A stretch of 20,541 nt of DNA. Source: a virus. The position numbers and the translations under genes are program-made. The notes beneath the pieces are model-generated. The model made no database searches. It was not told the origin of the DNA and worked only from the letters and a program-made list of their open reading frames with translations. The stretch is from positions 1 to 20,541 of the IMG/VR virus record IMGVR_UViG_3300044765_000024; one strand, written 5' to 3'. Shown piece after piece: positions 1-19,826 of this stretch. Position 1 is the first letter of the stretch; each line of letters starts with the position of its first letter.

Positions 1-2
1 AT

Positions 3-1373
3 GTGAAGACTGCCATTCAAAGCGGGGGATCGGTGACGCTGGGCTTCCAGACTCCGCTGGCTATCGTGCCACAGGTCGGTGCAAAGGTCATGGTCTACAC
101 GCGACTGGTCAATTCGGCGCAGATTACGATCCCCATCGCGTCACCCAGCGTGCTGGGCGGTATTAAGATCGGTGCAGGTCTGCAGGTGGCGCTCGACGGG
201 ACATGCTCGGTAGACGCGGCATCGCTGGGTGCAGTGACGTCTGTCAACGGCAAGACCGGAGTCGTCAACCTGACGCCCTCCGATATTCCGGGGTTGGCTA
301 CTGTAGCAAGCACGGGCAACTACAACGACCTGATCAACAAGCCGACTCCCTACTCGCTGCCGATAGCAGGTCTGTCCACGCTGGGTGGGGTGAAGCTACC
401 GTCGAACGGCAACCTGGTGGTCAACGGACAGGGCGTAATCGACTTCGGCTTCTCTCCGGTCAAGACCGTCAACAATGTGGCACCGGATGTGAACGGTAAC
501 GTGCAGGTGACGACAACCGACATCGGTTTGATCAACCCGGCCTCAGTGTCGAACGCAGCAGACCTCAACACCTACAAGACCACTGGTCTATTTACTGTTA
601 CCGCAGCAGTCGCACCTACGCTGACCAACTCTCCTGGGATCACGCAGGCGGCCACCCTTGAGATCGTTCCGCTTGTGAACGGCGGCACTGGAGACGTTAT
701 CCAGCGGCTGACCACTGCGGCAGGCTTATGGTGGAGGGCATGCTACAGCGGGACGTGGAACGCATGGCAGCAAGTGGCGACCGAAGCTGTTGCGACAACC
801 ACTACGCTGGGCGTCGTCAAGATCGGTGCAGGTCTGAGCGTAGGTGTAGACGGTACGGTATCTGCAAGCTACTCGAACATTCCGGTGGCCTCGGCGTCCA
901 CACTGGGTGCAGTCAAGGTAGGATCAGGACTGAGCATCGACGGTTCCGGAGTGCTGTCTATCAGCTCCTCGTTCGACAAGCTGGACCGCGTGAACGGCAT
1001 TGCAGTCGGCCTGTTCTTGAAAGGCAATGCATTGCCCTCTGCTACGACAACCATTAGCGGAAATGTCTCGACTGCGAACTTCCAGACTGTGACTGTGACG
1101 GGCACTGGAGCCATCACGTGGTCGCTTTCAGGATGGCCAACTTCCGGCAACTACGGCGAAATGGAGTTTCAGCTCACGAACGGCGGACTGGCGGCTTCGC
1201 ATACGTTCCCGGCTGCGGTGCAGTGGGTGAAGCCTGACGGAACGTTGACGAACGACTTCCCCACGTACATGACTGCCAAACGTGGGGCCACTAACTTCCA
1301 GAACCCAGGTGTCGACTTCGTTATCTTCTGGTCGTCCGACGGCGGTACAACCATCTTTGCTCGGGTGATGTGA
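3..1373 (+). CDS. Tail-fibre protein, 5' end cut by window edge
   Basis: Virion tail-fibre protein. The frame is open to the left edge. The first possible start is a GTG at 3, but no ribosome site is visible and the protein begins in what looks like mid-domain, so the true start is probably outside the window. Visible parts (numbered from the GTG): four units of the fibre repeat type STLGxVKxGxGL near residues 49, 125, 267 and 299; a VTSVNGKTG block at 78-149; a region at about 187-262 (DLNTYKTTG ... QRLT ... WNAWQQVA) that matches the pyocin-knob pattern of phage fibres; and a C-terminal beta domain ending DGGTTIFARVM. Residues 78-149 closely resemble residues 129-199 of the large fibre at 7071. 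The stop overlaps the start of the next gene (ATG within TGATGTGATG), so the two are translationally coupled. The fibre class is certain; the receptor is unknown. Confidence 0.85.
   Translation: MKTAIQSGGSVTLGFQTPLAIVPQVGAKVMVYTRLVNSAQITIPIASPSVLGGIKIGAGLQVALDGTCSVDAASLGAVTSVNGKTGVVNLTPSDIPGLATVASTGNYNDLINKPTPYSLPIAGLSTLGGVKLPSNGNLVVNGQGVIDFGFSPVKTVNNVAPDVNGNVQVTTTDIGLINPASVSNAADLNTYKTTGLFTVTAAVAPTLTNSPGITQAATLEIVPLVNGGTGDVIQRLTTAAGLWWRACYSGTWNAWQQVATEAVATTTTLGVVKIGAGLSVGVDGTVSASYSNIPVASASTLGAVKVGSGLSIDGSGVLSISSSFDKLDRVNGIAVGLFLKGNALPSATTTISGNVSTANFQTVTVTGTGAITWSLSGWPTSGNYGEMEFQLTNGGLAASHTFPAAVQWVKPDGTLTNDFPTYMTAKRGATNFQNPGVDFVIFWSSDGGTTIFARVM
141..959 (+). repeat. Four dispersed STLGxVK fibre repeats
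   Basis: Within the fibre gene, units begin near 141, 375, 798 and 891. Each encodes a variant of [S/T]xLGxVKxGxGLxxxxxGxxS. Units 1, 3 and 4 are most alike at DNA level (for example AAGATCGGTGCAGGTCTG occurs in units 1 and 3). Such short beta repeats are common in trimeric phage fibres, where they form the shaft. Confidence 0.7.
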
Positions 1374-2254
1374 TGTTCAGGCTCAGGAAATACTTAGACG
1401 CAGGCGGCAACTACGTGCCTCCGATCACGGATGGTGCGTACGCCATTTTCAAGACCACCGGCAACTCGTCGGCCAAGTACACGTACTCTGGAGACGCGAC
1501 GAGCGTAGCTCAATCGTTCTCCAGTACGATTGACCGGACCATCTCGGTGGGTAACGCAACGAGAGGCGTGTTCTTCCAATCGTCCTCGAGTGGGCTCTCA
1601 GCCCGATACACCTATGCGTCCAACACCATAACAGACGACGGGGCGGCGCTAGGGGTTGCTACGGGGTCGGGCTCTGCTTCGTGCTCTAACGCGTCGTTCG
1701 GTCTGGTTTCCCCTAACGTGTCAGGCGTGCAGCCATTCATGAAGTACACGTTCGCGGCCAACACGTCTGCTGCATCGACATCTGCTACTGTAGCACTAAG
1801 TGGAGGTGCCGGATGCGGCAACGACACCTACGGTATCTTCGCAATGGGCGGCACTGCAACTGCGGGTACGAACGTGTCGAATCGGTACACGTACTCGGAC
1901 GACTCTGTGATAGCAGGTGGTAACCTTACGACCACTAGCAAGAACGGTGGCGCTGCTGGCAACATGACTATGGGTGCATTCGTCACAGGTGGTTCGTCAG
2001 CTAACCTAGTGACCAATACATACTCGTATGCGAGCAACACCTTCGCTGTGGGAAACAACTTGTCGGCAGCGATTATCAGCCTACAGGCAACAGGGAACAG
2101 CGCGTGCGGTATCTTCAGCGTGCGCACCGGAGTGGCAACGACAGCAAGATGCGATTACGCCAGCGATACGTTCAGTGTAGGTACGAGTCTACCGGCGAAC
2201 ACTGCGGCAACCAACAATGGCGCCACCTCGAACGGAAACACAGGCATCCTCTAA
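1370..2254 (+). CDS. Beta-propeller-like repeat protein, accessory tail protein
   Basis: No named family is certain. The 294 residues consist of about six units of 43-47 residues, each a G-rich strand (pattern xxYGIF) followed by an aromatic strand of type [R/K]YTY[A/S]S[D/N]. The aromatic motifs lie near residues 37, 80, 126, 173, 218 and 262, and the protein ends in a lone first-strand motif, GNTGIL. This is the pattern expected of a Kelch-like beta-propeller whose ring is closed by a terminal strand. The residues are mainly small and polar (T, S, N, G, A), with no signal peptide. The ATG lies inside the 3' end of the fibre gene, so the pair is cotranslated. The same fibre-then-propeller order recurs at 7071-10824. 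Position suggests a fibre-tip, receptor-binding or virion-decoration role, which is inference. Confidence 0.7.
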   Translation: MMFRLRKYLDAGGNYVPPITDGAYAIFKTTGNSSAKYTYSGDATSVAQSFSSTIDRTISVGNATRGVFFQSSSSGLSARYTYASNTITDDGAALGVATGSGSASCSNASFGLVSPNVSGVQPFMKYTFAANTSAASTSATVALSGGAGCGNDTYGIFAMGGTATAGTNVSNRYTYSDDSVIAGGNLTTTSKNGGAAGNMTMGAFVTGGSSANLVTNTYSYASNTFAVGNNLSAAIISLQATGNSACGIFSVRTGVATTARCDYASDTFSVGTSLPANTAATNNGATSNGNTGIL

Positions 2255-2271
2255 TCGACTAGAGTGCACAA

Positions 2272-2310
2272 AGGGAGCTACCACTAGCAATGGTAGCTCC
2301 CTCTTTTATT
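2272..2310 (+). terminator. Intrinsic terminator of first fibre run
   Basis: The hairpin GGGAGCTACCA (2273-2283), loop CTAGCAA, TGGTAGCTCCC (2291-2301) is followed by TCTTTTATTT. One further A-T pair extends it. It lies between convergent genes. On the minus strand the following tract is only TTTG, so it may stop the exonuclease transcript less well. The stem core is identical to that of the terminator at 12096-12136. Confidence 0.88.
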
Positions 2311-3178
2311 TCCTGCCGAACAGACCTCGGGTCTTGGGCCAGCACAGATCTTGGTGTGCGTACCACCAACTACTCATGCCGGTCTTCTGCACCTTGGCTG
2401 GCTTCAGCATCTTCGGATCAGGCAAAGCCAAGTCGGTTTTGAGCGTCACCAGCTTGTTGTTGATCATCAGCTGAGCCTGCTTGGAACGAATGAACCTCTT
2501 GGTCGCTTCGTCAGAGGCCTCGAACCAGTCTTTGATCGACTTGTGCTTGAGGCAAACGGCCTTAGCTTTCGCAGGGCTAAGGATCTGCGGTATGTCGTCG
2601 ATGCCGTCACCTATCAGGGTTTGGTACATCACCATCTTGGAGACGGGTACACCTTTTAGCTTCTCCGCCTTCTCCGCCGTCATGTACTTGGGCTCAGGCT
2701 TGGCGCTTGAGTCGTACATGCGGACACCCTTCTTCAGGGCTTGAAATCCGTCCTTGTCCTTGCATCCTCCCACCACGTCATAGCCAAGTGCCGAGTACTG
2801 CGCAGCAGCGGATGCCCACACGTCGTCGGCCTCGTACTTCTTGTGCTGGAGGACGTGGACGCCACACGAGGCGAATAGCGACCGTACATTCGGTAAACAG
2901 GCGTAGACGTCCGTGTACCCCTCTTCTGATTCCTTCTCTGCTCTCTTCTCCTCTCGGGACACCTTGTAATTCTTGTAGATGTCGTATCGAAAGACCGCGT
3001 GTCCGTCGAACGCCACCAGAATGCGAGGGGCCTTGACGTTGACGGCGTCCTTCAGAACGAGGTTCAGAAGATTCATTGGCAGCACGTCTTCCAGACGGCG
3101 ATTGGTCTTACCTACGACCGTGTGATAGCAGCGATGCAGATACCAATTTGCATCCACCACCAATATTCGTTCACCCAT
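2306..3178 (-). CDS. 5'-3' exonuclease / flap endonuclease (PolA N-terminal type)
   Basis: Predicted metal-dependent 5' nuclease that trims flaps or RNA primers during phage DNA replication, like T4 RNase H or T5 D15. The family's acidic motifs are in order: VVDANW (D9), AFDG (D58), YKxxR (71-75), EADD (116-119), DKD (141-143) and GDGIDDIP (D191, D194, D195). The 290-residue length fits the family. The helix-hairpin-helix after residue 195 is unusual: the normal glycine-rich GVPGIGxKTA stretch is replaced by QILSPAKAKA, so DNA contact there may differ. The ATG overlaps the TAA of the upstream 93-residue gene (TAATG), so they form a two-gene unit. Placement of a replication enzyme inside the late virion and lysis region, on the opposite strand, is notable. 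The nuclease family is secure; the exact substrate is not. Confidence 0.93.
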   Translation of the reverse strand: MGERILVVDANWYLHRCYHTVVGKTNRRLEDVLPMNLLNLVLKDAVNVKAPRILVAFDGHAVFRYDIYKNYKVSREEKRAEKESEEGYTDVYACLPNVRSLFASCGVHVLQHKKYEADDVWASAAAQYSALGYDVVGGCKDKDGFQALKKGVRMYDSSAKPEPKYMTAEKAEKLKGVPVSKMVMYQTLIGDGIDDIPQILSPAKAKAVCLKHKSIKDWFEASDEATKRFIRSKQAQLMINNKLVTLKTDLALPDPKMLKPAKVQKTGMSSWWYAHQDLCWPKTRGLFGRK

Positions 3179-3459
3179 TAGTGCATGCTCCTTGAGTAGA
3201 GTGGGGCCTCTTGTTTGATCACCAGTACGTAATCCTCTTCAGGCTTCTCGGTCTCGAGCTCCGCGTAGTGATCGACGAAGCCTACAGTGACGTGCGGTAT
3301 GGACTTGCGGAGACGGGTCTGCACGGCCTCTCGTAGAATTTGCGGATCTACATCGGGACCCAGGTTGAGCATTACGGTTTGGCCTTGCGCAAGCGCCAGC
3401 TCAGGATTGAACAGCGCAGAGTGAGCACCCTCAGCTATGAATATTCCAACGCAGCTCAT
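3178..3459 (-). CDS. Hypothetical 93-residue protein upstream of exonuclease
   Basis: I do not recognise this protein. It is short and soluble-looking, with a hydrophobic N-terminus (MSCVGIFIAEGA), a middle segment that could alternate helix and strand (VDPQILREAVQTRLRKS then PHVTVGFVD) and an acidic patch, ELETEKPEED, before the C-terminal strand. It has one cysteine and no signal peptide or transmembrane segment. The start is well supported by AAAGGAGG five to six bases upstream on the minus strand. The stop overlaps the exonuclease start by one base, so both are made from one transcript, most likely started in the 3460-3528 gap. Coupling suggests a role linked to the nuclease or to DNA metabolism, but nothing in the sequence proves it. 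Confidence 0.75.
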   Translation of the reverse strand: MSCVGIFIAEGAHSALFNPELALAQGQTVMLNLGPDVDPQILREAVQTRLRKSIPHVTVGFVDHYAELETEKPEEDYVLVIKQEAPLYSRSMH

Positions 3460-3528
3460 ACTTTCCTCCTTTGCTAACTATTTACTGTCTCAATTTCATG
3501 CAATGACTTTAAATTAAAAAGGGCTTCT
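3460..3528. promoter_or_regulatory. Divergent AT-rich intergenic region, probable promoters
   Basis: This 69-base gap separates the leftward exonuclease pair from the rightward lysis genes and is the only divergent junction in the window, so transcription in both directions must begin here or read through from far away. It is much richer in A/T than its surroundings. On the minus strand TTGCAT and TAGTTA are 17 bases apart, a weak sigma70-like match. On the plus strand TTTAAATTA lies about 15 bases before the holin start. Neither is a convincing consensus. The minus gene has a strong AGGAGG; the holin has only a weak AAAAGGG. Confidence 0.4.
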
Positions 3529-3876
3529 ATGGATCCGAAGATATTAGAGACCCTGTCTCAGTGGCGGGACCCATTGGGCTATACTTGGACCACCTACCTG
3601 TGGGTGGTCATGGTGGCCACTATGGCAAGCGTAGTCAAACACCTGAACGCCATGAAGAAGTTTCGATTGGGAAAGCTCTTGTTGGACATGATGACTGCAG
3701 GTGTTACGGGCATCATCGTGTTCTGGCTGTGCGAAGCGCGCGACATTCATGGGCCGATGAGTGCAGTGGCAATTGCTATAGCAGGAGCAATGGGAAATCG
3801 CTGCTGGGCAGAGTTCGAGAACATCTGGCGAATCAAATTCGGCTTGAGAAAAACTGAAGACGAGGAACCAAAATGA
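3529..3876 (+). CDS. Holin, LydA-like (holin superfamily III)
   Basis: Predicted inner-membrane holin that sets the time of lysis and lets the endolysin reach the cell wall. The 115 residues carry three likely membrane spans, at about 18-36, 51-69 and 74-91, and a charged C-terminal tail (RKTEDEEPK). The block from FWLCE through IHGPMSAVAIAIAGAMGNR matches the pattern of P1 LydA-type holins, in which an FWLCE-like motif is followed by a short polar turn and a glycine-rich third span. It is the first gene of the rightward lysis cassette. Its stop overlaps the next start (ATGA). The call rests on motif memory and topology plus the neighbouring endolysin. Confidence 0.82.
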   Translation: MDPKILETLSQWRDPLGYTWTTYLWVVMVATMASVVKHLNAMKKFRLGKLLLDMMTAGVTGIIVFWLCEARDIHGPMSAVAIAIAGAMGNRCWAEFENIWRIKFGLRKTEDEEPK

Positions 3877-4322
3877 CCGCAACTCAACTACTGATCTTAG
3901 GCAAAAAATTCAAGACCATAGCAGATGCCGTGTATGCCCTCTCAGCACTATTCGTGGTTCCGTGCGTCGTAGTCACTCCCGTGCTTTGGTGCTTGCAGAA
4001 ACCACCTGAGATACGTTCACACGTACAGGCACGAACAGTCTTAGGCGGGTCAATGCAAGAGCTTCAAGGCGGTATCGAGTTCAATGAGGGGCAGCCTCTC
4101 AGGGTTGCCTATCACTTGGAATTAATAGATCGACACGGGCGGATCATCAAGTTCCCAAAGGTAGAGACGCGAGGAACACCTCGTTTCGACAACATGCTGA
4201 TCCCTATCCCCGCAACGATCAAGCCCGGCGACTACCAGTTGGTCGCCAAAGTTCAGTACACGGTGAATCCCATTAAGGCCGTGGCAAAAGAGATCCCAGT
4301 CACCACCATAACGGTGAACTGA
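3873..4322 (+). CDS. Membrane-anchored beta-sandwich protein A of lysis cassette
   Basis: Unknown function. The N-terminus has positive residues (K11, K12, K14) before one long hydrophobic span at about 20-41, so the remaining ~108 residues should face the periplasm. That part is predicted beta-rich (strands such as LRVAYHLELID, QLVAKVQYTV, VTTITV) and resembles an Ig-like sandwich. There is no lipobox: the cysteines at 31 and 40 lie inside the span in the contexts VVPC and VLWC. The C-terminal pattern PGDYQLVAKVQYTVNP followed by a strand aligns with GRYEAHVVIGYKLNP in the next gene, so the two are tandem paralogues. It overlaps both neighbours (ATGA and TGATG) and has GAGGA upstream. Its place between holin and endolysin suggests a lysis or envelope role such as a spanin substitute, antiholin or lysis regulator. 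This is inference. Confidence 0.75.
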   Translation: MTATQLLILGKKFKTIADAVYALSALFVVPCVVVTPVLWCLQKPPEIRSHVQARTVLGGSMQELQGGIEFNEGQPLRVAYHLELIDRHGRIIKFPKVETRGTPRFDNMLIPIPATIKPGDYQLVAKVQYTVNPIKAVAKEIPVTTITVN

Positions 4323-4735
4323 TGGGGGCTCTCCGATGGATTGCAAGTACGGTTTCAGCAGGAACGGCTTTGACCTTAATTTTCTGGTGGTGGCAACCTG
4401 ATGTTGAGATCAACGTCGGCGACGTGTCGGTACTCAGTCAAGTTGAAGGTCAGAGCCTAGCGCTTAACGTGCCAGTCGAGAACTATGCGTCGGTGCTTCA
4501 AGATTTCACCATGCGAGCGGAGATACGCAATCTACGAGGTAAGCGCGTTAGTCAAACAGACGCCATTCACTACGAACCCGGGATGAACTACAAGTTCGTC
4601 ACCAATCGTAATATGGCCCGCGGTCGCTACGAGGCGCACGTAGTGATCGGATACAAGCTGAACCCACTGCGCTCTAGTGAGCTAGATTTCCCACTGGCTA
4701 TAATCTATGTGGAGCCAAACAATGATCAACAGTAG
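4322..4735 (+). CDS. Membrane-anchored beta-sandwich protein B of lysis cassette
   Basis: Paralogue of the preceding gene, function unknown. One membrane span at about residues 6-24 follows R5 and ends in a WWW cluster. The remaining ~110 residues are beta-rich and probably periplasmic. The shared C-terminal signature is G-x-Y ... Y-x-x-N-P-[LI] followed about 10 residues later by a P-containing hydrophobic strand (here YKLNPLRSSELDFPLAIIYV; in the upstream copy YTVNPIKAVAKEIPVTTITV). There is no signal-peptidase II site, no coiled coil and no second span, so it does not look like a standard i-spanin, o-spanin or unimolecular spanin. Its start overlaps the upstream stop (TGATG), and its end overlaps the endolysin start by 14 bases, so all four lysis-cassette genes are coupled. 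Confidence 0.73.
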   Translation: MGALRWIASTVSAGTALTLIFWWWQPDVEINVGDVSVLSQVEGQSLALNVPVENYASVLQDFTMRAEIRNLRGKRVSQTDAIHYEPGMNYKFVTNRNMARGRYEAHVVIGYKLNPLRSSELDFPLAIIYVEPNNDQQ

Positions 4736-5339
4736 TCAACTCATGAGCTTCGTCGGCAAGTCCGACGAGGCTCTAGTAGATTCTATCAACGCCGTGCTGG
4801 ATCGCTTCGCCATAAACACGCAAAGGCGTGTGCGGTACTTCCTCACCCACGCAGCCTTCGAGACCCAGATGTTCACTAGATTCGAGGAGGACCTGTGGTA
4901 CTCGACGCCTGAGCGGTTAGTTGCCGTATGGCCCAAACGGTTCACCTTGGACCGGAACATCCGCCTCGCCTACGCACCTGACTACATCAAGAACCCCCAG
5001 AAGCTGGCGAACTTCGTGTATGGAGGGCGCAACGGCAATAGCGGAACAAACGACGGATGGCTCTACAGAGGACGAGGCGGATTCCATCTGACATTCCTCG
5101 ACAACTACAAGGCGTACTCGCACGCTATATACGGCGATGACCGCTGCGTGACTGATCCGGAGCTGGTAGCCAAGCCGGCCGACGCCATGATGAGCGCAGG
5201 ATGGTTCTGGGATAGTCGGGGCTTCAATCACTTAGCTGACCTGGATCAGTTCACCCAAGTCACTACTCAAATCAACGGGTCTGCTGCTACCGCGCCTGCC
5301 CGACTCAAAGTTCTCAACAAAGCCAATCAAATCTTCTAG
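4722..5339 (+). CDS. Endolysin, GH19 chitinase-like lysozyme
   Basis: Predicted muralytic enzyme that cleaves peptidoglycan glycan strands at the end of infection. The whole 205-residue protein is one glycoside hydrolase family 19 domain: LTHAAFET (41-48, probable catalytic acid E47), FEEDLWYS (54-61, second glutamate at 55 or 56), KLANFVYGGRNGN (94-106) and the GWLYRGRGGFHLT core (112-124), the equivalent of the YGRGPIQLT substrate-cleft motif. There is no signal peptide or cell-wall-binding repeat, which fits holin-dependent export in a Gram-negative host. I chose the ATG at 4722 over the in-frame ATG at 4707 because GGAG (4711-4714) sits seven bases before it and alignment to the family begins here. 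It overlaps the upstream gene by 14 bases. Confidence 0.9.
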   Translation: MINSSQLMSFVGKSDEALVDSINAVLDRFAINTQRRVRYFLTHAAFETQMFTRFEEDLWYSTPERLVAVWPKRFTLDRNIRLAYAPDYIKNPQKLANFVYGGRNGNSGTNDGWLYRGRGGFHLTFLDNYKAYSHAIYGDDRCVTDPELVAKPADAMMSAGWFWDSRGFNHLADLDQFTQVTTQINGSAATAPARLKVLNKANQIF

Positions 5340-5351
5340 TCGGAGGTTGTA

Positions 5352-6062
5352 ATGGTCCCAGATTCACTGCTCTATCTGCCTCTAACGATACACGCAGAGG
5401 CAGACATTTATTCGTACGCACCTCTGTTGCCTACGACACCCTCGACGTCTAGCGGTTTGGGGGCTTTCGTATTGACAGCGGATCTGGGGTCATTCCACCA
5501 GGGTCTATACGTATTGGAGAACGAGACATGGCGATTTGCCTTGCCTCAGCCGGTGGTCTCCGACGTGCTGATCCGGGGCTACGAAGTGGATGTCTATGTT
5601 GGCCTCGATAGTCCGCTGACTGTACCCGCCGCCTCCATCTCGTACAAGAATGGAGTTCTTTCGCACTCGCCGAGTCTCCAAGGGCACAGTGTCTTCTGCG
5701 TGTTGAGTCCACGTCCTTCAGAATTTTATCTGAAGGCGTCACGGACGCTAGACAAGCATAGAGTGCTCAAGACCGCTGACGATGGCGCCGACTACGCATC
5801 TAGCAATGTGCCGGCTGACGCTTTCAAAGTGGCAGGCATAAGTGCTGAGGCCGCAAGCCAGGGCCAGCTCGTAAGAATTCAAACAACCGGAGAGCTGACC
5901 GACTCTGGCTGGAATTGGGAAGTCGGTCAACCAGTCTTCAATGGAATAGACGGGAATCTGACACAAGAAAACCCTTCCGTGGGATACAGCCTGATAGTTG
6001 GGATCGCTATCAAGCCGTCTTCAATTCTGATCTCGATGAAACAACCTATCATTCTCGACTAA
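5352..6062 (+). CDS. Tail appendage protein with shared adaptor domain
   Basis: Virion protein, probably a short tail appendage or fibre adaptor. Two parts are visible. Residues 1 to about 123 contain LYVLENETWRFALPQ, then VDVYVG and ISYKNGVL, and align in order with LYVYDNTQAWRYALPI, CDLYINV and IVYRNGQL in the large fibre at 7071, so both share an N-terminal domain. Residues about 140-236 follow the pattern of a C-terminal domain widespread in phage tail proteins: a glycine turn, GWNWEVGQPVF, DGNLTQENPSVGY, then IGIAIKPSSI and PIIL. The 6073 gene ends with a related form. GGAGG precedes the ATG by five bases. It is the first gene of the ten-gene fibre operon and follows the endolysin by 12 bases. 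Confidence 0.75.
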   Translation: MVPDSLLYLPLTIHAEADIYSYAPLLPTTPSTSSGLGAFVLTADLGSFHQGLYVLENETWRFALPQPVVSDVLIRGYEVDVYVGLDSPLTVPAASISYKNGVLSHSPSLQGHSVFCVLSPRPSEFYLKASRTLDKHRVLKTADDGADYASSNVPADAFKVAGISAEAASQGQLVRIQTTGELTDSGWNWEVGQPVFNGIDGNLTQENPSVGYSLIVGIAIKPSSILISMKQPIILD

Positions 6063-6072
6063 GGAGCGTAAC

Positions 6073-6678
6073 ATGGGTACTGCATCGACTAAGAAATTCA
6101 TCAAGCAAGTTAACGGCCAGCTGACGGAAGAGGCCGCTCTCATCACCTCGGCAGGCGCAGGTGACGCAAACAAGGTTCCGGCGCTCAACGCATCCGGCGT
6201 ACTGGATCATTCCATCATCAATGCCACGGTGACTTCCGCTGGCGCGGGCGACTCGGGTAAGACTCCGGCTCTCGACTCCACCGGCCGGCTGGACACGTCG
6301 GTGATGCCAGTGGGCATCGGGGCGGAAACCGGCAGCATCGTGGCTTCCGAAGACCTGGATGACGGCGACTTCGTGAACGTGTGGAACAACTCGGGTACGC
6401 CGAATGTCCAGAAGGCAGACGCCGCCACGGGCAAGGAGGCGCACGGCTTTGTGCTGGCCGCAGTGACCAGCGGTGATCCGGCCACCGTCTACTTCGAGGG
6501 CTCCAACACGCACCTGACTGGCCTGACAGCTGGTCCGGTGTTCCTCAGCACTTCCACTCCGGGTGGTACGCAGTCCTCAGCTCCTACCGGAAGTGGTCAA
6601 ATCAGTCAGCGTCTGGGCACTGCATTTGCCGCCACGTCGCTGACCTTCGAGCCGCAGCCCGTCATCGTGGTGGCCTAA
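6073..6678 (+). CDS. Tail appendage / capsid-decoration-like repeat protein
   Basis: Structural protein of a type often found with phage fibres. It starts with a 29-residue tandem duplication at about residues 25-82: each copy begins TSAGAGD, continues K-x-P-A-L-[N/D]-[A/S]-[S/T]-G-x-L-D and ends near a hydrophobic I/V. The second half begins IVASEDLDDGDFVNVWNN, then KADAATGKEAHGFVL, AGPVFLST, the G-S-G-Q-x-x-Q-R-L-G-x-A turn and FEPQPVIVVA. This matches a beta domain common in tail proteins, and it resembles the end of the previous gene. AAGGAG lies six bases before the ATG, and the stop abuts the next ATG exactly (TAAATG). Exact location in the virion is unknown. Confidence 0.72.
   Translation: MGTASTKKFIKQVNGQLTEEAALITSAGAGDANKVPALNASGVLDHSIINATVTSAGAGDSGKTPALDSTGRLDTSVMPVGIGAETGSIVASEDLDDGDFVNVWNNSGTPNVQKADAATGKEAHGFVLAAVTSGDPATVYFEGSNTHLTGLTAGPVFLSTSTPGGTQSSAPTGSGQISQRLGTAFAATSLTFEPQPVIVVA
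6145..6318 (+). repeat. 87-base tandem coding repeat, two copies
   Basis: Copies begin at 6145 and 6232. Each encodes 29 residues opening TSAGAGD and containing K-x-P-A-L-x-x-x-G-x-L-D. The copies differ at many silent sites, so the duplication is old and kept at protein level. Confidence 0.7.
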
Positions 6679-7053
6679 ATGGCGCAGCGCCGTCCACTGG
6701 TGAACGTGAGCGGCGCTCTTGCTGAGGTCTCTCTCACCGACAGTTTAGTAAGCGGGATGGAGGCCAATCTTTCCGATACGGTAGATGCCACAGACGAGCT
6801 GACCTCAGTCAGCTTGTCAACACGCTATACCTACCTAGTTGGAACAGCAGGGGCTTCCCTCGCTATAACGCTGCCAGCTGCTTCGTCTGACATAGACGGG
6901 CAGCTTATGACAGTGACCTCAACAACTGACCGGGCATCTACGTCGTGGACCTCTTCTGGGGGTACTACGACAGGGCTGCCGGGCTCTCTAACAGCGAACC
7001 AATCGGTTACTGTGAAGTACATTCATTCTCAAGCACGTTGGTTCGTAAGCTAA
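6679..7053 (+). CDS. Small tail-fibre-associated beta protein
   Basis: A 124-residue virion-type protein not assigned to a named family. The core pattern YLVGTAGASLAITLPAASSD then GQLMTVTSTT, a serine/glycine stretch and SVTVKYIHSQARWFVS is the short beta-sandwich often found as a domain in phage fibres, in which an aromatic strand is followed by ITLPAAS and the domain closes with a W-x-V strand. Here it stands alone as a separate gene. The ATG follows the upstream stop with no gap, and there is no clear Shine-Dalgarno site, so translation is probably coupled to the 6073 gene. A fibre-cap or appendage part is the likely role. Confidence 0.65.
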   Translation: MAQRRPLVNVSGALAEVSLTDSLVSGMEANLSDTVDATDELTSVSLSTRYTYLVGTAGASLAITLPAASSDIDGQLMTVTSTTDRASTSWTSSGGTTTGLPGSLTANQSVTVKYIHSQARWFVS

Positions 7054-7070
7054 CTCTCCAAGGAGCTCTA

Positions 7071-9842
7071 ATGCCTACTCCTCTTTTTATCCCAGCAACT
7101 CTCTATGACGGCCCGAACTCAGGGGCCGTCCTCGTTCCTTACGTAGACGCTCTACCACTGGCGCCTACAACAGGTAGGGCCTTGATCCTCGACCAACTGG
7201 TGGGTGTTAATGTGCCGGGCCTGTACGTCTACGACAACACGCAGGCGTGGCGCTACGCGCTGCCTATCGAAGCAGTGAGTGCCATCGTTGTCGGTGGAGA
7301 TCAGTGCGATCTCTACATCAACGTTTCGCAGACCTATAATCTGGGTTCGACCACCATCGTCTATCGCAACGGCCAGTTGCAGACCGGTCACGACGTGGTT
7401 CCCGCAAATGCCGTGTACGCTGTGAGGACACCTAGCCAAGCATCGCAAGGTGCGGTGACGTCCGTGAACGGCAAGACCGGAATCGTGGTGTTGACTGCGC
7501 AAGACATAGGAGGCTTCGCCAATGTCGCTTATTCTGGCCTATACTCTGACCTGATTGGCGCTCCTGGTCCGTACACGCTGCCCGCTGCCACAGGCTCTGC
7601 ACTGGGCGGCGTAATCGTTCCGTCGTCGTCGAACATTTCTATCGATAGTTCGGGCAATATCGATCTCAAGTCGACGGTGCTCACGAAGATCAACAATGCA
7701 TTGACCGACGTGCAGAACGCAGGTACGGGCTCGTCACTGATTCTGTCGAAGGTCTCTGGCGTGGTGACGCTGAAGTCGCTGGCCGCAGGCTCCAATGTGA
7801 CCATCACCGACAACGGGACAGGTACCCTCACCATTGCTAGCTCGGGTGGCTCCATCACCTCGGTGGGTACCGGTGTGTCCCTGATCGACTCGCAGGCTTC
7901 CTCGAATACCAATCTGCGCTCTATCGTCGCAGGCTCTAATGTGACCGTTACCTCGAACGGCACAGGCGGCATCGTCATCGCATCGACGGCAGGATCAACG
8001 TCTACGACTCTCACCGGAGACGTCACGGGTACTGGTACGGGCACCGTAGCCACTACGCTGGCGAACAGCGGCGTCACGGCAGGCACCTACACACAGGTCA
8101 CTGTCGATGCAAAGGGTCGCGTGACTGTAGGTGCGAATCCGACCACTTTGGCAGGCTTCGGCATCACCGACGCTCTGCCTCTGGCCGGGGGGACGATGAC
8201 AGGCGACATCAACATGACCCTCGGGAAGACCATCAAAGGTGTCCCGGACCCAGTCGCGCTGACGGATGTTGCAAACAGGAACTACGTCGACACTGCGTTG
8301 GCCGACGCAGCCAACGGCGTGTCGTGGCGTGAATCGGCCGCAGTGGCTACCACTGCAAACCTTGCGGCTCTGAGTGGACTGCAGACCATCGACGGCTACA
8401 CGCTGCAAGCGGGCGACCGAGTGCTGGTCAAGAACCAGACCACGGCAACTCAGAACGGTGTCTACGATGCCGCGAGTGGTGCGTGGACCCGCTCGTCGGA
8501 TTCCAACACAGGAGCAGAGCTGCTCCACGCAGCGTACCTGGTGGTGAACGGTACGACCAATGGCTTGACGCAGTGGGCCAATACGAACCAAACGACTCCG
8601 AACGTGGGAACTGATGCTATCACGTTCGGTCAGCTGCGGGCGGCAGGCAACCTGTACACGGCGGGTGCAGGTCTGACTCTGAGTGGTCTGCAGTTCAGTA
8701 TTGCCCCCACTGGAGTGACTGCGGGCTCCTACGCGAAGGTGACAGTCAACACTCTGGGTCAGGTGACTGGAGGTTCGGCGCTGACCAGCTCAGACATCAC
8801 GACGGCTTTGGGCTATACGCCGTACAATGGGACGACGAACCCGAGTGGCTTTATCGGAGCCCTTACCGCAGCAGGCGATGCGACGGGCTCGACGGTGGTA
8901 ACGGGTTCGGCGGGTGTGCTGACACTCGCATTGGCAACAACTGGTGTTGCGGCCGGCACCTATACCTCAGTAACAGTGGACGCCAAAGGTCGTGTGACTG
9001 CGGGCGGTCAGATCACGCCTACTCAGATCACGACAGCGCTGGGATACACGCCCGTGAACAAAGCTGGCGACACGATGAGTGGCGCGCTGAACTTCGCACC
9101 TCAGGCGACCGTTACGGCATCGGCGACGACAGGAATCGGTGCGGCTGGGGCTAACCAAATTCTTGTCAATGGTACGACGACAATCACGGCCTTCGACACT
9201 ATCGCATCTGGTGCGTTTCGCGTTGTGGTCTTTGCCAGTACCCTGACGCTGACCCACAATGGTACGTCTCTGATCCTACCAGGCGCTGCGAACATCACGA
9301 CCGCAGCTGGTGATGTTGCCCAATTCGTGAGTCTCGGATCAGGTAACTGGCGGTGCGTCAACTACATGAAGGCAGACGGTACGCCGCTCAAAGGTGGTAG
9401 TGGTTCGCCATACAGCACGGTGCAGATCTTCAACGGGTCGACAACTGACTTTGCGGCAGAGTTCGTCAACGCAGTTGAGCTGGTGAAGATCACCGGCACC
9501 ACTCCGAGCCCGAACTTCGACGTTCAATTAGGTGCTGTGCAGTACTACACAACCAATCTCAGCCAGAACTTTGGTATAAACTTCAGGTTCAACAGCACCA
9601 CAACCCTCGGATCGATGCTGTCCTCCGGGATGTCGGTAACACTGGCCCTGATAGTGAGCAACGGCTCGAATGCGTTTATGCCCACCACTTTCCAAATCGA
9701 TGGTTCGGCTATAACGCCTAAGTGGCAAAACGGAGTGGCCCCCTCAGGAGGAAACCCTTCGGCCTACGACATCTATACGTTCACGATCATTAAGAGCGGA
9801 GCGAGTTTCATAGTATTCGCGGCGCAGACCACGTTCTATTGA
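7071..9842 (+). CDS. Large tail-fibre protein (923 residues)
   Basis: Main long-fibre candidate of this operon. The start is set by AAGGAG at 7060-7065, five bases before the ATG; the frame stays open upstream, but that region belongs to the 6679 gene. Order of parts: adaptor-like domain 1-126 (LYVYDNTQAWRYALP), shared with the 5352 gene; VTSVNGKTG block from 129, shared with the fibre at the left edge; two ~44-residue copies of SLI-x-S ... AGSNVT[I/V]T-x-NGTG; three GVTAGTYTxVTVDAKGRVT units at 334, 548 and 625; AGGTMTGDI and AGDTMSGAL; a fibre domain at about 417-522 (SWRESAAVATTANLAAL ... QAGDRVLVKNQT); ITTALGYTP motifs; and a C-terminal beta domain. The host-binding part is probably the last ~100 residues. 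It is followed by a hairpin and then a second propeller-like gene. Confidence 0.88.
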   Translation: MPTPLFIPATLYDGPNSGAVLVPYVDALPLAPTTGRALILDQLVGVNVPGLYVYDNTQAWRYALPIEAVSAIVVGGDQCDLYINVSQTYNLGSTTIVYRNGQLQTGHDVVPANAVYAVRTPSQASQGAVTSVNGKTGIVVLTAQDIGGFANVAYSGLYSDLIGAPGPYTLPAATGSALGGVIVPSSSNISIDSSGNIDLKSTVLTKINNALTDVQNAGTGSSLILSKVSGVVTLKSLAAGSNVTITDNGTGTLTIASSGGSITSVGTGVSLIDSQASSNTNLRSIVAGSNVTVTSNGTGGIVIASTAGSTSTTLTGDVTGTGTGTVATTLANSGVTAGTYTQVTVDAKGRVTVGANPTTLAGFGITDALPLAGGTMTGDINMTLGKTIKGVPDPVALTDVANRNYVDTALADAANGVSWRESAAVATTANLAALSGLQTIDGYTLQAGDRVLVKNQTTATQNGVYDAASGAWTRSSDSNTGAELLHAAYLVVNGTTNGLTQWANTNQTTPNVGTDAITFGQLRAAGNLYTAGAGLTLSGLQFSIAPTGVTAGSYAKVTVNTLGQVTGGSALTSSDITTALGYTPYNGTTNPSGFIGALTAAGDATGSTVVTGSAGVLTLALATTGVAAGTYTSVTVDAKGRVTAGGQITPTQITTALGYTPVNKAGDTMSGALNFAPQATVTASATTGIGAAGANQILVNGTTTITAFDTIASGAFRVVVFASTLTLTHNGTSLILPGAANITTAAGDVAQFVSLGSGNWRCVNYMKADGTPLKGGSGSPYSTVQIFNGSTTDFAAEFVNAVELVKITGTTPSPNFDVQLGAVQYYTTNLSQNFGINFRFNSTTTLGSMLSSGMSVTLALIVSNGSNAFMPTTFQIDGSAITPKWQNGVAPSGGNPSAYDIYTFTIIKSGASFIVFAAQTTFY
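7719..7986 (+). repeat. Two tandem 'AGSNVT' beta repeats in fibre
   Basis: Two neighbouring units of about 43-45 codons, each running GTGxSLI-x-S through AGSNVT[I/V]T-x-NGTGxxxIAS. The DNA also matches partly (GCAGGCTC[C/T]AATGTGACC in both), which points to duplication within the gene. Confidence 0.65.
8070..9011 (+). repeat. Three dispersed GVTAGTYTxVTVDAKGRVT units
   Basis: Units begin at 8070, 8712 and 8943. Each gives G-V-x-A-G-[T/S]-Y-x-x-V-T-V-[D/N]-x-x-G-[R/Q]-V-T. The last two are each followed by ITTALGYTP; the first by the related TLAGFGITDALPLAGG. These are common shaft units of phage long fibres. Confidence 0.75.
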
Positions 9843-9848
9843 TTAACA

Positions 9849-9883
9849 GGGCCGCCATTAACATTAATGGCGGCCCTTCTTCT
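9849..9883 (+). terminator. Hairpin after large fibre gene, likely terminator or attenuator
   Basis: GGGCCGCCATT (9849-9859), inner AACATT, AATGGCGGCCC (9866-9876) gives an 11-bp stem, extendable to 13 with a two-base loop, followed by TTCTTCT. The tail is C-interrupted, so termination may be partial. It ends just before the AGGAGA ribosome site of the next gene, so it may lower expression of the downstream four genes relative to the fibre or stabilise the fibre message. Confidence 0.75.
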
Positions 9884-9894
9884 AGGAGATTCAA

Positions 9895-10824
9895 ATGCCT
9901 ATGATTGGAACACGCGGGGTAATGTCCTCGCGCGGGCTCGGGCAATTCTCGGCAAAGAATTTGGTGCCAGGTACATTTGCGGTAGTTGTATTAGGGCTCG
10001 GTTCTTGGAGATATTCGTTCGCTACAGACACCGCAGTGCAGTTGCTGTCGAGCATAGACTCGAACGGCACTACCCCGTCTGGTAATAGAATGACCAACGT
10101 TGGTAACTCTGTAAAGGCTTATCTGAGCGTGCGGTCTAACTCCAACGGCATTCTGTTCATGAAGCGCATGCTCTGGTCCGCCCAGAAAGCGCTTAAGAGC
10201 GTCAGCTTAGTGCCTCAGGTTAACAACCTGAGCCCTACCGCGTCTGGCAACTCAACCGTGGGTGTCATATCCAACAGTAGTGGAGCGTCCCCTTCGGGTG
10301 CAGTGGACACTATTACCTACTCAAATGATGCAGTGGCGTCCGGCACTACACTGACAGGGCAGGCCTACGGAGGTCAGTCTGTCGCGACTTCGGACCACGC
10401 TCTGTTTGCTCTTATGGGATCTTCGCTACAGCAGACTAACAAGTACGGATTTGCTGACAACAGCGTCGTCTCTGGGACCAACCTCACGTTCACAGCGTCG
10501 TACTCGGCCGGTGCCTCAATCGGGAACGCTAATGTAGGTATCTTCACCCGAGCCAACAGCACAAACCTCACCTGCAAGTACACGCACGCAGGTGACACTG
10601 CGGCGAACAGCACGAACCTTGTGGGTAACACGTCTGTAGTCGGCGGGTGGAATAACGATGTGAGTGGGGTCATACCCTATGGCGCTGCAACAGGGCAGAC
10701 CAACTGGACGAAATGGCTTTTCGCCAGCGACACGGTTAGCGCTGTCCTAGGAAGCAGTACAGGCCTCGGTAGTGCCATATATGCCTATGGCTGCGCCAAC
10801 GGTATTCCAGGAGTCTCTGTGTAA
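9895..10824 (+). CDS. Second beta-propeller-like repeat protein
   Basis: Same architecture as the protein at 1370 but strongly diverged. The 309 residues hold about six units spaced 44-53 residues apart. Each has a G-rich strand (TVGVIS, HALFALM, NVGIF, SGVIPYG) and then an aromatic strand followed by a polar turn: WRYSFATD (38-45), MLWSAQ (92-97), TITYSND (139-145), KYGFADN (183-189), KYTHAGD (228-234) and KWLFASD (273-279). A lone final strand (SAIYAYG) at 293-299 could close the ring. The first two units are the least regular. It has no signal peptide. The ATG at 9895 has AGGAGA six bases upstream. It follows a large fibre gene, as its relative does. The role in the virion, perhaps a fibre tip or receptor-binding accessory, is inferred from position. 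Confidence 0.7.
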   Translation: MPMIGTRGVMSSRGLGQFSAKNLVPGTFAVVVLGLGSWRYSFATDTAVQLLSSIDSNGTTPSGNRMTNVGNSVKAYLSVRSNSNGILFMKRMLWSAQKALKSVSLVPQVNNLSPTASGNSTVGVISNSSGASPSGAVDTITYSNDAVASGTTLTGQAYGGQSVATSDHALFALMGSSLQQTNKYGFADNSVVSGTNLTFTASYSAGASIGNANVGIFTRANSTNLTCKYTHAGDTAANSTNLVGNTSVVGGWNNDVSGVIPYGAATGQTNWTKWLFASDTVSAVLGSSTGLGSAIYAYGCANGIPGVSV

Positions 10825-10868
10825 GCCAGCAATTTCACGACACCTATAACAACCCTTCCGAGGACTAA

Positions 10869-11519
10869 ATGACTGCCAAACCGCACCGCCAGAACTCCGG
10901 CTTCCAGCTTCGTTACTTCCTTGCTGGTCAGTGCTCAACGCCTGATGGAGCATACGTACTCATGTACGGTCAGATGACCGACATGAAGAACAAGCTGCGC
11001 CACGCGGAGGCCCAGCTGAAGCGTCGACATGCCAAGCTGGCCAAGTCTCAGTATGTGATCGACCACCCAGCAGAGTTCAAGGCCTACGAGGTATTGGAGG
11101 CCGAAGCCGACAAGTTGGAAATCGAGGCCGACATCCCTATCTGGGATATGAATGTGTTAGCCGCTCAACAAGAGTTGGCCGACATCGAGAACCTCATGTT
11201 GGAGATACGCCCCAAGTGCAAGTATGCGGATCTTCCTATTCTGGAGATGAGCGAGGCCTGTCAAGAAGAAGAGTGGCTGGGCGAATTGAAGCAACGCGCT
11301 GAGAACTTCCTCATCACTGCTGGTACGATCCCGCATGATCATTTCCAGACCATGCGGTCGCACCCGAGGTTCAAGACCGACCTGGTGCCGCACATTCAGC
11401 TCGTAAATCAGAAGCTGGCAACAGCAGCAGCGTTGACTCACAAAGGCCAAGACGGTATGACTTCCCTCATGCTGGAACTGGAGGAACCAAAGTTGCTTGA
11501 AGCTCCAAAGGAGGATTGA
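10869..11519 (+). CDS. Hypothetical helical, acidic protein (216 residues)
   Basis: Unrecognised. The N-terminus NSGFQLRYFLAGQCSTPDGAYVLMYGQM may form a small fold. Then comes a charged helix likely to be coiled coil (about 33-62, MTDMKNKLRHAEAQLKRRHA), a second acidic helix (about 70-105) and a C-terminal helical half with TIPHDHFQTMRSHPRFK. There is no membrane span. It differs from its neighbours in being helical, not beta-rich, so it is less likely to be a fibre part and could be a scaffold or chaperone for the fibres encoded upstream. The ATG lies 44 bases after the propeller gene with GAGGA upstream. The stop overlaps the next start (TGATG). Confidence 0.65.
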   Translation: MTAKPHRQNSGFQLRYFLAGQCSTPDGAYVLMYGQMTDMKNKLRHAEAQLKRRHAKLAKSQYVIDHPAEFKAYEVLEAEADKLEIEADIPIWDMNVLAAQQELADIENLMLEIRPKCKYADLPILEMSEACQEEEWLGELKQRAENFLITAGTIPHDHFQTMRSHPRFKTDLVPHIQLVNQKLATAAALTHKGQDGMTSLMLELEEPKLLEAPKED

Positions 11520-11716
11520 TGGACTTTGCAGACATCGGACTTGAGGCCACTGAGGCGCGCACGGAGGCCTTAATCAAGGAGGCGCGCGAGCGAGTCGAAA
11601 CGACGCCTAAAGCGAAGGGCTCGTGCAACAATCCATTGTGCGGGCTCGACACTGACAAACCTTTCTGTTCGCCGGAATGCCGTGACGAATACGACCGAGT
11701 AAAGGACAAGATATGA
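11519..11716 (+). CDS. Small zinc-finger protein (65 residues)
   Basis: Function unknown. An N-terminal acidic helix (about residues 8-29) is followed by a four-cysteine metal-binding site: C36-x4-C41-x8-C50-x3-C54, ending CSPECRDEYDR, which resembles the treble-clef or zinc-ribbon knuckles of small phage and bacterial proteins. I chose the ATG at 11519 and not the TTG at 11516 because AGGAGG ends at 11514, too close to the TTG. The ATG shares a base with the stop of the upstream gene, and its own stop overlaps the next start (ATGA). A nucleic-acid- or protein-binding regulator is possible; assembly factor is equally possible. Confidence 0.7.
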   Translation: MDFADIGLEATEARTEALIKEARERVETTPKAKGSCNNPLCGLDTDKPFCSPECRDEYDRVKDKI

Positions 11717-12096
11717 CCTACATCACAGGCAGTGCCTCGCCGCCTCAGAGTTTGGGGCTCGAACTCAAGGCTACGGTGTGCCGCAATCAGATACAGCGCA
11801 CGGTGGGCAATTACTCTGCACTGTACTTCGCTGACCAGTCCAACATACAGGACGTGTACATCGAACTCGATGAATTGCAAGTGTGGTCATCGAATCCGCA
11901 GGAGACTTACCAGCAGCTGGTGGTTTCCTGTTCGGGGCCGCTGGAGTTCACTGGGGTTCGCCCTAACGGATCATCCGTAACGCTGACGGCCAACAAGATG
12001 CTGGTTCTGGACACTGAGTTCAGGACGTTCAAGTTGTCGAACATCAACACCGAACGAGTAAGGGCCCAGTTGAATTTCGTTTCGACCCGGCCGTAA
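11713..12096 (+). CDS. Hypothetical beta-rich protein closing fibre operon
   Basis: Unrecognised 127-residue protein. Sequence alternates short hydrophobic strands and polar turns (LELKATVC, DVYIELDELQVW, QLVVSCSGPLEF, NKMLVLDTEFRTFKL, VRAQLNFV), as expected of a compact beta-sandwich, probably a virion part. It has no signal peptide or span. It overlaps the zinc-finger gene by four bases (ATGA), and its stop codon touches the base of the strong terminator hairpin at 12096, so it is the last gene of this operon. Confidence 0.65.
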   Translation: MTYITGSASPPQSLGLELKATVCRNQIQRTVGNYSALYFADQSNIQDVYIELDELQVWSSNPQETYQQLVVSCSGPLEFTGVRPNGSSVTLTANKMLVLDTEFRTFKLSNINTERVRAQLNFVSTRP

Positions 12097-12141
12097 AAAG
12101 AGGGAGCTACCATTGCTAATGGTAGCTCCCTCTTTTCGTTT
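12096..12141. terminator. Strong bidirectional intrinsic terminator
   Basis: A perfect 19-bp inverted repeat lies at 12096-12114 and 12118-12136 with a three-base loop (GCT). The stem begins AAAAG and ends CTTTT, giving a T run on either strand. It lies between two convergent operons (fibre operon on plus, baseplate operon on minus), so it stops both. Its GGGAGCTACCA/TGGTAGCTCCC core and TCTTTT tail match the terminator at 2272-2310. Confidence 0.93.
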
Positions 12142-12152
12142 TTCACAGGGGA

Positions 12153-12680
12153 TTACGGAATGAGCATGCGTGGCTCCTGCAACAGTGCCTGCGTGAGAAC
12201 CGGTGGATTCTTCTCAAGCTCATCAGATTTCCTCTGATACGTACCCAGAGCAACTGCAACTGCTTCGTGGTATGCGTTGGCCTTGATCACGATCTTCTGG
12301 GCAAGTACGTCTACGTCTACGCCCCTGATCCTGCTCAGGGTCTCCAAGAAAAGGCTGGGCGTGCCTGTCTTGAGATACTCCCTCGCGTCTGCCTCCTGTC
12401 GCGAATACGTCGCCACTTCGTCGGGAGACTTACCTGACGTGAGTGCATTGATGGCATTGCGCAGCTCCCGCTTCAGAGCTCCTTGCGCCGCTTCACTTAG
12501 CAGCTTGGGCGTAATCTGATCAAGAGGGCGTCCGTGCATCCAGCCATGCCCGTTGAAGTAGACCTGCTGTCCTTCTCGTTGAGCTGGTGGCGCCCACGTA
12601 GTTGAATTAGGCGGCGGATTCTCAGATATGACAAAGCCTTGAGGAATAAAGGTCTCCGGGCAATAGGTGTAGTAGATCAT
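12153..12680 (-). CDS. Tail-fibre assembly chaperone
   Basis: Probable chaperone that helps the fibre encoded just upstream to fold and trimerise. The N-terminal part follows the tail-fibre-assembly pattern: short aromatic start (MIYYTYCPET), then PPPNSTTWAPP, then VYFNGHGW. The C-terminal part (SRQEADAREYLKTGTPS ... LSRIRGVDVDVLAQKI ... AYHEAVAVALGTYQ) resembles the DUF4376-like helical domain often fused to or found in such proteins. I take the ATG at 12680, which overlaps the stop of the fibre gene (ATGA), over the TTG six bases upstream, giving 175 residues. It is the last gene of the minus operon and ends just before the bidirectional terminator. Confidence 0.78.
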   Translation of the reverse strand: MIYYTYCPETFIPQGFVISENPPPNSTTWAPPAQREGQQVYFNGHGWMHGRPLDQITPKLLSEAAQGALKRELRNAINALTSGKSPDEVATYSRQEADAREYLKTGTPSLFLETLSRIRGVDVDVLAQKIVIKANAYHEAVAVALGTYQRKSDELEKNPPVLTQALLQEPRMLIP

Positions 12681-14701: not shown

Positions 14702-14711
14702 GAGCTGCCTT

Positions 14712-15458
14712 TCAATAATTGGTGAGCTTGATTTGGAAATCGTTGTTCAGGCCTATCGCCACAATGACGGCTGCATCGCCGTCTATCTCGGAGACTATCT
14801 GCATGTCGAAGTTTGCGTCCACCGACTGAAGCACGAGATTGTAGTTGGCGATCTCGTAGAAGAACTGCTGGAGCGTCAGGATGTCGATGCCCTTCAACCC
14901 TCCCTTGGCCTCAATCAATACGTGCGTTGTCGGATACCACGGTCCGCCCTCCCATATAGGAGTGCCTATGGTTTCATCTCCCTCAGGTACGAAGGTCACG
15001 TAGTCAGTGGTCCACATATTGAAGACCCTGAAATCTGAGGACAGGCAGTAGTTGATGAACTCGATGAACTGTCCTGTGCCCTTGCCGAACCAGTAGGTGC
15101 CGACGAAACGAGCAATGGTCTGGTAAGCGTCGTCTGAGATGATGCCTGCGGTCTGGAGCTTCATGCCGAGGGCGTTGACCTGCTTGACTACTAGGTCGCG
15201 GTCAGGAGTAGACCATGCACTGTCAGGTATCAACGCCTGCTGGTCCACGCTGGCCTCCGTCGTAGGGTTTTGCACCCACATATTGCGGAGATTAGCCAGA
15301 GTCCGAAGCTCTGCATCTACAGTGGGGCCGAACACTGCGTCCATCGCATTGCAGTACTCGACGAAATAAGGGTTCGATGCGAGATACGGTGGCAGCAGAG
15401 TCGAACGAGGAACGACGATTCCGTGACGCTGCCTGTACTTTGCGCTTTCAGTATCCAA
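14712..15458 (-). CDS. Baseplate protein, gpI-like
   Basis: Probable baseplate wedge protein linking the J/gp6 ring to the fibre, placed as P2 gpI is, directly between gpJ and the fibre gene. The N-terminal part LLPPYLASNPYFVEYCNAMDAVFGPTVDAELRTLANLRNMW follows the pattern of an N-terminal helical region that gpI-type proteins start with. The remainder (DDAYQTIARFVGTYWFGKG, FINYCLSSDFRVFNMWTTDY) resembles tail proteins of large myoviruses. The start is TTG at 15456-15458: AGAGAGG lies six bases upstream and there is no ATG before residue 39. It overlaps the 67-residue gene upstream by 11 bases. The assignment rests on order as much as on sequence. Confidence 0.68.
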   Translation of the reverse strand: MDTESAKYRQRHGIVVPRSTLLPPYLASNPYFVEYCNAMDAVFGPTVDAELRTLANLRNMWVQNPTTEASVDQQALIPDSAWSTPDRDLVVKQVNALGMKLQTAGIISDDAYQTIARFVGTYWFGKGTGQFIEFINYCLSSDFRVFNMWTTDYVTFVPEGDETIGTPIWEGGPWYPTTHVLIEAKGGLKGIDILTLQQFFYEIANYNLVLQSVDANFDMQIVSEIDGDAAVIVAIGLNNDFQIKLTNY

Positions 15459-17832: not shown

Positions 17833-17851
17833 GTTGTCCTCAAATGAAATT

Positions 17852-19818: not shown

Positions 19819-19826
19819 GTGATCTC

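Follow-up and report, generated by a model that had tools for sequence, protein, structure and literature searches.

Fibre genes paired with Kelch-type propeller genes in a phage contig: a candidate socket-and-plug set of exchangeable fibre-tip adhesins

The two gene pairs and the predicted fold of their downstream proteins

The window analysed here is the whole of a 20,541-bp viral contig (IMGVR_UViG_3300044765_000024). It carries two fibre genes, each directly followed by a gene for a protein that is predicted to fold as a six-bladed Kelch-type β-propeller (propellers A and B; Table 1). The C-terminal domains of the two fibres, called here socket 1 (F1_C) and socket 2 (F2_C), and the short N-terminal tails of the propellers are central to the interpretation given below, in which each propeller would be a separately encoded fibre tip. 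Over its full length the window is 98.2% identical to positions 56,186-76,728 of a near-twin phage record of 189,544 bp, G001 (IMGVR_UViG_3300044719_000048). Fibre 1 is whole in that genome (55429-57558, about 693-709 amino acids). The TGA stop codon of fibre 1 overlaps the ATG of propeller A at 1373 (TGATG), and a gap of 52 nucleotides (nt) separates the stop codon of fibre 2 from propeller B.

Table 1. Positions of the fibre, propeller and companion genes and of their parts in the window
Feature	Position	Strand	Remark
Fibre 1, 3' part of gene	3..1373	+	cut by the left edge of the window
VNGKTG block, fibre 1	219..494	+	residues 73-164
Socket 1 (F1_C), C-terminal domain of fibre 1	963..1370	+	Kelch propeller gene directly 3' in 6/9 F1_C loci
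Propeller A, six-bladed Kelch-type (predicted)	1373..2254	+	alternative start GTG at 1370
N-terminal tail of propeller A (MFRLRKY...)	1373..1432	+	putative plug for socket 1
Fibre 2, 923 amino acids	7071..9842	+	
VNGKTG block, fibre 2	7440..7715	+	residues 124-215
Socket 2 (F2_C), C-terminal domain of fibre 2	9393..9839	+	phrog_5906-like, unknown function
Propeller B, six-bladed Kelch-type (predicted)	9895..10824	+	
N-terminal plug of propeller B (MPMIGTRGVMSSRGLGQF)	9895..9948	+	putative plug
Companion gene of the 'TPDGA' family, 216 amino acids	10869..11519	+	found beside Kelch propeller genes

The first-pass annotation of this DNA had described two fibre-plus-repeat-protein pairs, and both were found where it had placed them. 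The six-unit layout that it gave to the repeat proteins is also real: a profile of 12 units, each of about 45 residues, finds exactly six units in each of the two proteins, and matches no third protein among the proteins of G001. Its statement that A and B share little sequence was too cautious, as the two proteins are 27% identical over 275 residues with an expectation (E) value of 8e-10.

AlphaFold models of both proteins, built with alignments of 19-20 family sequences, have the same predicted fold, not unrelated ones. Propeller A is modelled as six blades with 24 strands (mean predicted local distance difference test score, pLDDT, 78.8; predicted template modelling score, pTM, 0.81), and propeller B as six blades with 23 strands (pLDDT 76.8, pTM 0.80). 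Residues 1-17 of A have a pLDDT below 50, and the first 20 residues of B are likewise of low confidence. Six repeats, for which a length of about 44-56 residues is typical, and four-stranded blades that close in a ring, the hallmarks of a six-bladed Kelch-type β-propeller, are present in both models. The top matches of a Foldseek search of the Protein Data Bank (PDB) are all Kelch domains, with template modelling (TM) scores of 0.64-0.77. For A they include KLHL20 and designed six-bladed Kelch proteins (best E 2.5e-12), and for B KLHL12, KLHL3 and Keap1 (best E 2.9e-10). Among the viral models of BFVD, the best match of A is a 'kelch-motif containing protein' of Burkholderia phage BcepSaruman.

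The resemblance to cellular Kelch domains such as KLHL20, Keap1 and KLHL12 lies in the six four-stranded blades. A and B are, however, only 9-15% identical to these domains, lack the regular Gly-Gly...Tyr...Trp signature and have no BTB domain. Sequence searches of Pfam, PHROGs, NCBIfam and the PDB with A and B gave no match, even at an E value of 10 for the last three, and neither protein reaches the cut-off of a Pfam Kelch model. A distant family member, L039, does pass Pfam Kelch_3 (24.4 bits against a cut-off of 22). A and B are Kelch proteins by their modelled structure and lie outside the Pfam Kelch families by sequence.

Relatives of the propellers were found in many phages by scans of 2.9 million viral contigs, and nearly all of them also have six repeat units. 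The first DNA pattern for the repeat gave two true relatives among 10 matches, and a scan of genome contigs with alignment A1 found no relative. Searches of named phages with A and B by tblastn gave no match; BcepSaruman and Sauron were reached only from a distant relative. A 1,620-residue protein of other phages (L036, 8753-13615; truncated in L038 and L051) has two propellers, each complete with six units, set among other domains.

Tails, sockets and exchangeable bodies

In A and B only some 18-25 residues come before the first blade, and none of them is a tryptophan. The N-terminal tails of the propellers vary with the fibre upstream. Behind F2_C fibres they read MPMIGTRGVMSSRGLGQF (propeller B), MPIIASRGIMSATGFGQF, MTLMGMRGAMSVSGFGRF and MPVIAARGAFAARAYGSY, with the consensus MPxIxxRGxxSxxGFG. 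Behind F1_C fibres they read MFRLRKY, MTLMRKY, MLLKKY, MMLKRKF, MLAKKFF and MLKTKFF, with the consensus M..L.(R/K)K(Y/F). Fibre 2 of the window ends in the F2_C domain and propeller B begins with a tail of the MPxIxxRGxxSxxGFG type.

The association between socket 2 and its tail was examined in both directions. A DNA pattern for the MPxIxxRGxxSxxGFG tail found 66 loci in viral contigs, 63 of which begin an open reading frame of at least 40 codons. In 54 of these 63 the frame lies directly after an F2_C domain, and five of the nine exceptions begin no more than about 120 nt from the end of a contig. Conversely, when 80 loci were picked by the F2_C domain alone, a gene with the tail (score of at least 8) came next in 79, most commonly after a gap of 9-10 nt, compared to 2 of 1,156 control N-termini. 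The remaining locus, L212, has MPRLSKIGAAALAAFGW, which looks like a variant of the tail. Profiles were used for this count; a simple regular expression finds the tail in only 27 of the 80 loci because it misses variants such as MSLLSRLAVQAARAYG.

Tail positions that were not part of the pattern are also conserved (Thr or Ser at 6, Ala at 9 and Phe at 15), and conservation decays from about residue 16-18 onwards. The folded bodies behind the tail are diverse. The 111 non-redundant proteins that carry it fall into 36 clusters, which include DUF7483, SBBP propeller, glycine-rich, LamG-like and other types, and Kelch propellers account for seven of the 111. F2_C fibres are also present in the cyanophages P-SSM7, S-CAM22 and Syn30, the Roseobacter phages CRP-3 and CRP-738, and MW202481. 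The products of the genes that follow them have N-termini that, as judged by eye, are similar to the tail. The annotation of this gene in MW202481 reads 'phage tail fiber adhesin gp38'.

Adjacency of fibre and propeller genes, which the first-pass annotation had proposed to survey, is conserved across related large phages, several of them distant. A fibre gene has a propeller gene immediately behind it in two of two cases in both G001 and G003 (133.9 kb), in the one case in G002 (153.7 kb) and in all four cases in IMGVR_3300050821_002122 (189.7 kb), which thus has four pairs in one genome. L035, L220 and L221 have one pair each. G004 (230 kb) contains two separate pairs and one in-frame fusion. 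In L041 (2868-4949) and its near-copies, a single frame of 693 residues comprises a fibre, an F2_C domain and then a six-unit propeller. This fusion has no plug.

These observations make it probable that each pair consists of a fibre and a separately encoded tip that docks onto it through the tail. What was computed comprises the predicted folds, adjacency, socket-tail pairing, body diversity and one natural fusion; from these we infer physical docking, a place at the fibre tip in the virion and receptor binding. The reading goes beyond adjacency because the tail and socket statistics agree in both directions, the body is independent of the tail, and the natural fusion dispenses with the tail. 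The conserved C-terminal socket domain would close the fibre, and the tail of about 18 residues, at the N-terminus of the adhesin encoded by the downstream gene, would plug into it. The folded body would then sit at the far end of the fibre, where its loops would touch the cell surface. In the phage of the window both tips would be six-bladed Kelch propellers, mounted on two different types of socket and plug. Recombination could swap the adhesin body behind the plug, an exchange made possible because the plug is short and is encoded right at the 5' end of the gene that follows; the same socket would therefore bear many unrelated folds in other phages. That the A and B pairs recognise different surface structures, as the first-pass annotation suggested, is plausible.

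Several points weigh against this interpretation. The iteration of the tail profile drew on hits from the very loci under test; in the first pass, with a profile made from the independent pattern set only, 56 of the 80 loci score at least 4, compared to 2 of 1,156 controls. Ranking within the reverse set was by resemblance to a single plug-associated domain, near-copies occur in both the forward and the reverse sets, and the pairing of socket 1 with the tail of propeller A is based on few sequences. Furthermore, adjacency does not hold everywhere. A socket-1 fibre without a propeller is present in one phage (L222-L224), the Kelch genes of BcepSaruman and L039 are away from fibres, and the propellers of L040, L045, L046 and L048 come after small structural genes and have a third type of tail.

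In L222-L224 the socket-1 fibre directly abuts a convergent exonuclease gene, an apparent natural loss of the propeller. The third N-terminal tail, SG(V/I)W(S/T)LxQQxQAxxxGxWP or GxWTIDQMxxWQKAGLWP, is found on Kelch propellers of smaller phages (L040, L045, L046, L048 and L228-L300); situated behind small structural genes, it is possibly another plug with a socket of its own. A third type of fibre, ending in ..DGGRN(F/Y), has a LamG-like protein after it, and no propeller, in G001 and G003 alike (G001 11071-15344 and 17679-18380; L030 2597-9336), and the two possibly make up a third fibre-tip pair.

The TPDGA gene that lies downstream of propeller B belongs to a family with no match above noise in Pfam or PHROG. 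In a sample that is redundant and biased to close relatives (it includes L228-L306), a propeller gene lies within 8 kb of the TPDGA gene in 82 of 85 loci and within 3 kb in 80, often only 1-30 nt upstream. Of the three other loci, two run into the end of their contig, which leaves L303 as the one genuine exception. In BcepSaruman the TPDGA gene is the direct divergent neighbour of the Kelch gene. The TPDGA protein would probably act as an assembly partner.

Origin of the two pairs

The two fibres have in common a segment that the first-pass annotation recognised by its VNGKTG motif. The segment is real, with 48 of 92 residues identical (52%, E 1e-18). The first-pass annotation took the two pairs for an old duplicated module. 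The value of the segment as proof of duplication was rejected, since fibres of related phages carry the block too.

A plain tandem duplication, in which a single fibre-propeller module gave two copies whose parts did no more than diverge, would account for the VNGKTG block in both fibres, for the homology of propellers A and B, and for the tandem pairs of IMGVR_3300050821_002122. The first-pass proposal holds insofar as pairs do multiply. It fails for the parts, in that outside the 92-residue block the N-terminal and C-terminal domains of the two fibres are not the same, and the propeller tails differ and follow the socket. Moreover, a propeller tree groups A with socket-1 propellers of other phages and not with B (support 83/71, which is modest), and both labels require about three changes on it; the tree is too divergent to place B itself. 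Duplication of a whole module is thus rather unlikely as the origin of the pairs. Assembly from shuffled parts around two socket types, with occasional duplication, looks the better fit.

The comparison with G001 gives a view of more recent changes. In fibre 2 the run of differences stops at 9,557, a point within the socket-2 domain, and the next 1,030 bases contain only one substitution. There are 57 synonymous differences in fibre 2 and none in propeller B, which differs at two sites, both non-synonymous. No sign of positive selection was found between the window and G001, and the ratio of non-synonymous to synonymous differences (pN/pS) of propeller A is 0.10. The pattern across fibre 2 and propeller B would fit, but from one genome pair does not prove, a recombination event with its crossover in or near the socket. 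Divergence from G001 is mosaic along the window, with zero differences over about 1.9 kb (3500-5500), very few over 9558-14700, and 18-22 per 250 bp near 19500-20500. This mosaic is read as recombination between close relatives.

Domains of the two fibres recur elsewhere in the window. The N-terminal domain of fibre 1, which is complete in G001, is related to that of a third fibre, encoded on the minus strand at 12677-14701 and of the PF12571 type. The N-terminal domain of fibre 2 (7071-7460) is shared with a small protein at 5352-6062, whose C-terminal part, like the protein at 6073, resembles a head decoration protein (phrog_4368, weak PF09956).

Comparison with known adhesins, chaperones and Kelch proteins

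The closest known arrangement is the gp37-gp38 pair of phages T2, PP01 and S16, where gp38 is fixed to the tip of the fibre trimer by its N-terminal part (PMC12892980, PMC6851490). Common to these and, on the reading favoured here, to the pairs described above are a separate adhesin, an N-terminal joint to the C-terminal end of the fibre trimer, and an exchangeable specificity. The gene order is also that of T-even gp38, as the genes starting at 1373 and 9895 lie directly downstream of a fibre gene. The joints, however, differ. The attachment domain of S16 gp38 is helical with conserved tryptophans, and N-terminal exchange between T2 and PP01 used 113 residues, whereas the stretch shared among the present proteins has a length of about 18 residues and no tryptophan; A and B have no large N-terminal attachment domain with helix tryptophans. 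The bodies differ as well, being a polyglycine sandwich in gp38 and a predicted Kelch propeller in A and B. Neither A nor B matches a gp38 family of Pfam or PHROG, and none of ten plug or plug-like proteins of other phages has a gp38 match in Pfam, though several are glycine-rich. By the family test A and B are not gp38.

The chief rival explanation is that the propellers are assembly chaperones specific for their fibres, or transient caps, that are absent from the mature virion or not needed in it. Behind many fibre genes lies the gene of a chaperone, as in T4 (gp38) and Alteromonas phage V22 (gp26/gp27, PMC10579305), so that the order of a fibre and then a small partner is common to both systems, and the pairing of tail and socket suits a chaperone equally well as a tip. 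Unlike those pairs, however, the ones described here have a propeller as partner, many unrelated substitutes behind the same tail, and one natural fusion. Some 36 unrelated bodies (glycine-rich, LamG-like, Kelch) on the same plug and socket fit the recognition of varied targets better than the folding of one fixed domain, and L041 carries its propeller in permanent fusion behind the socket domain. Searches of Pfam, PHROG and NCBIfam with A and B gave no match to a chaperone family (T4 gp38, Tfa/caudo_TAP). A Kelch protein of phage CBB, CBB_552, was found in the virion by mass spectrometry (PMC5259590). A chaperone role is therefore unlikely. The first-pass annotation had counted the propellers among no standard fibre chaperone or tip family; the Kelch-like fold is itself known from jumbo phages, and one such protein is a proven virion protein.

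A second possibility places the propellers at the same location and differs only in the activity assigned to them: they would be virion enzymes or lectins, for example polysaccharide-modifying ones, that ride on the fibre and are not the primary receptor binders. Propellers often bind or cut glycans, and LamG-like and glycine-rich domains occur on other plug proteins, which would suit such a role. Neither A nor B matches an enzyme family of Pfam, however, and we regard this alternative as very unlikely. An intracellular role of the propellers, such as many cellular Kelch proteins have, with a place beside fibre genes that is due to chance or to expression timing, is hardly credible in view of the adjacency kept in many genomes, the socket-tail pairing and the in-frame fusion, even though the Kelch gene of BcepSaruman has no adjoining fibre.

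Kelch proteins are already known in jumbo phages (CBB_550, CBB_552 and CBB_554, BcepSaruman_110, EL, PhiPA3 and others), where they have no assigned function; what they share with A and B is a Kelch-type β-propeller in a large phage. Their function has been described as 'not yet elucidated' (PMC7760394). BcepSaruman_110 is a sequence relative that, unlike A and B, has no adjoining fibre.

Of these explanations we favour tips that dock onto fibres, and we infer a socket-and-plug set of exchangeable fibre-tip adhesins, which would resemble gp37-gp38 of T2 and S16 but with a plug of only about 18 residues and with variable folds. We lean slightly towards a broader proposition, namely that a large share of phages with F2_C fibres use a common plug of about 18 residues on which unrelated adhesin folds are swapped as whole genes, that at least two plug standards coexist, so that one phage may have several independent tips, and that the TPDGA protein is a companion dedicated to Kelch tips. 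No description of the socket-tail rule was found in the open-access papers searched, subscription papers being mostly outside the coverage.

Receptor-binding tips are among the fastest-changing phage proteins, and among the worst annotated because their bodies have no sequence in common. The conserved tail and socket provide a simple rule for finding them, which is to look at whatever gene comes next behind a fibre of the F2_C type. This rule offers a role for the Kelch proteins of large phages, to which the literature had given no known function, and an account, open to testing, of how entire recognition folds may pass between phages.

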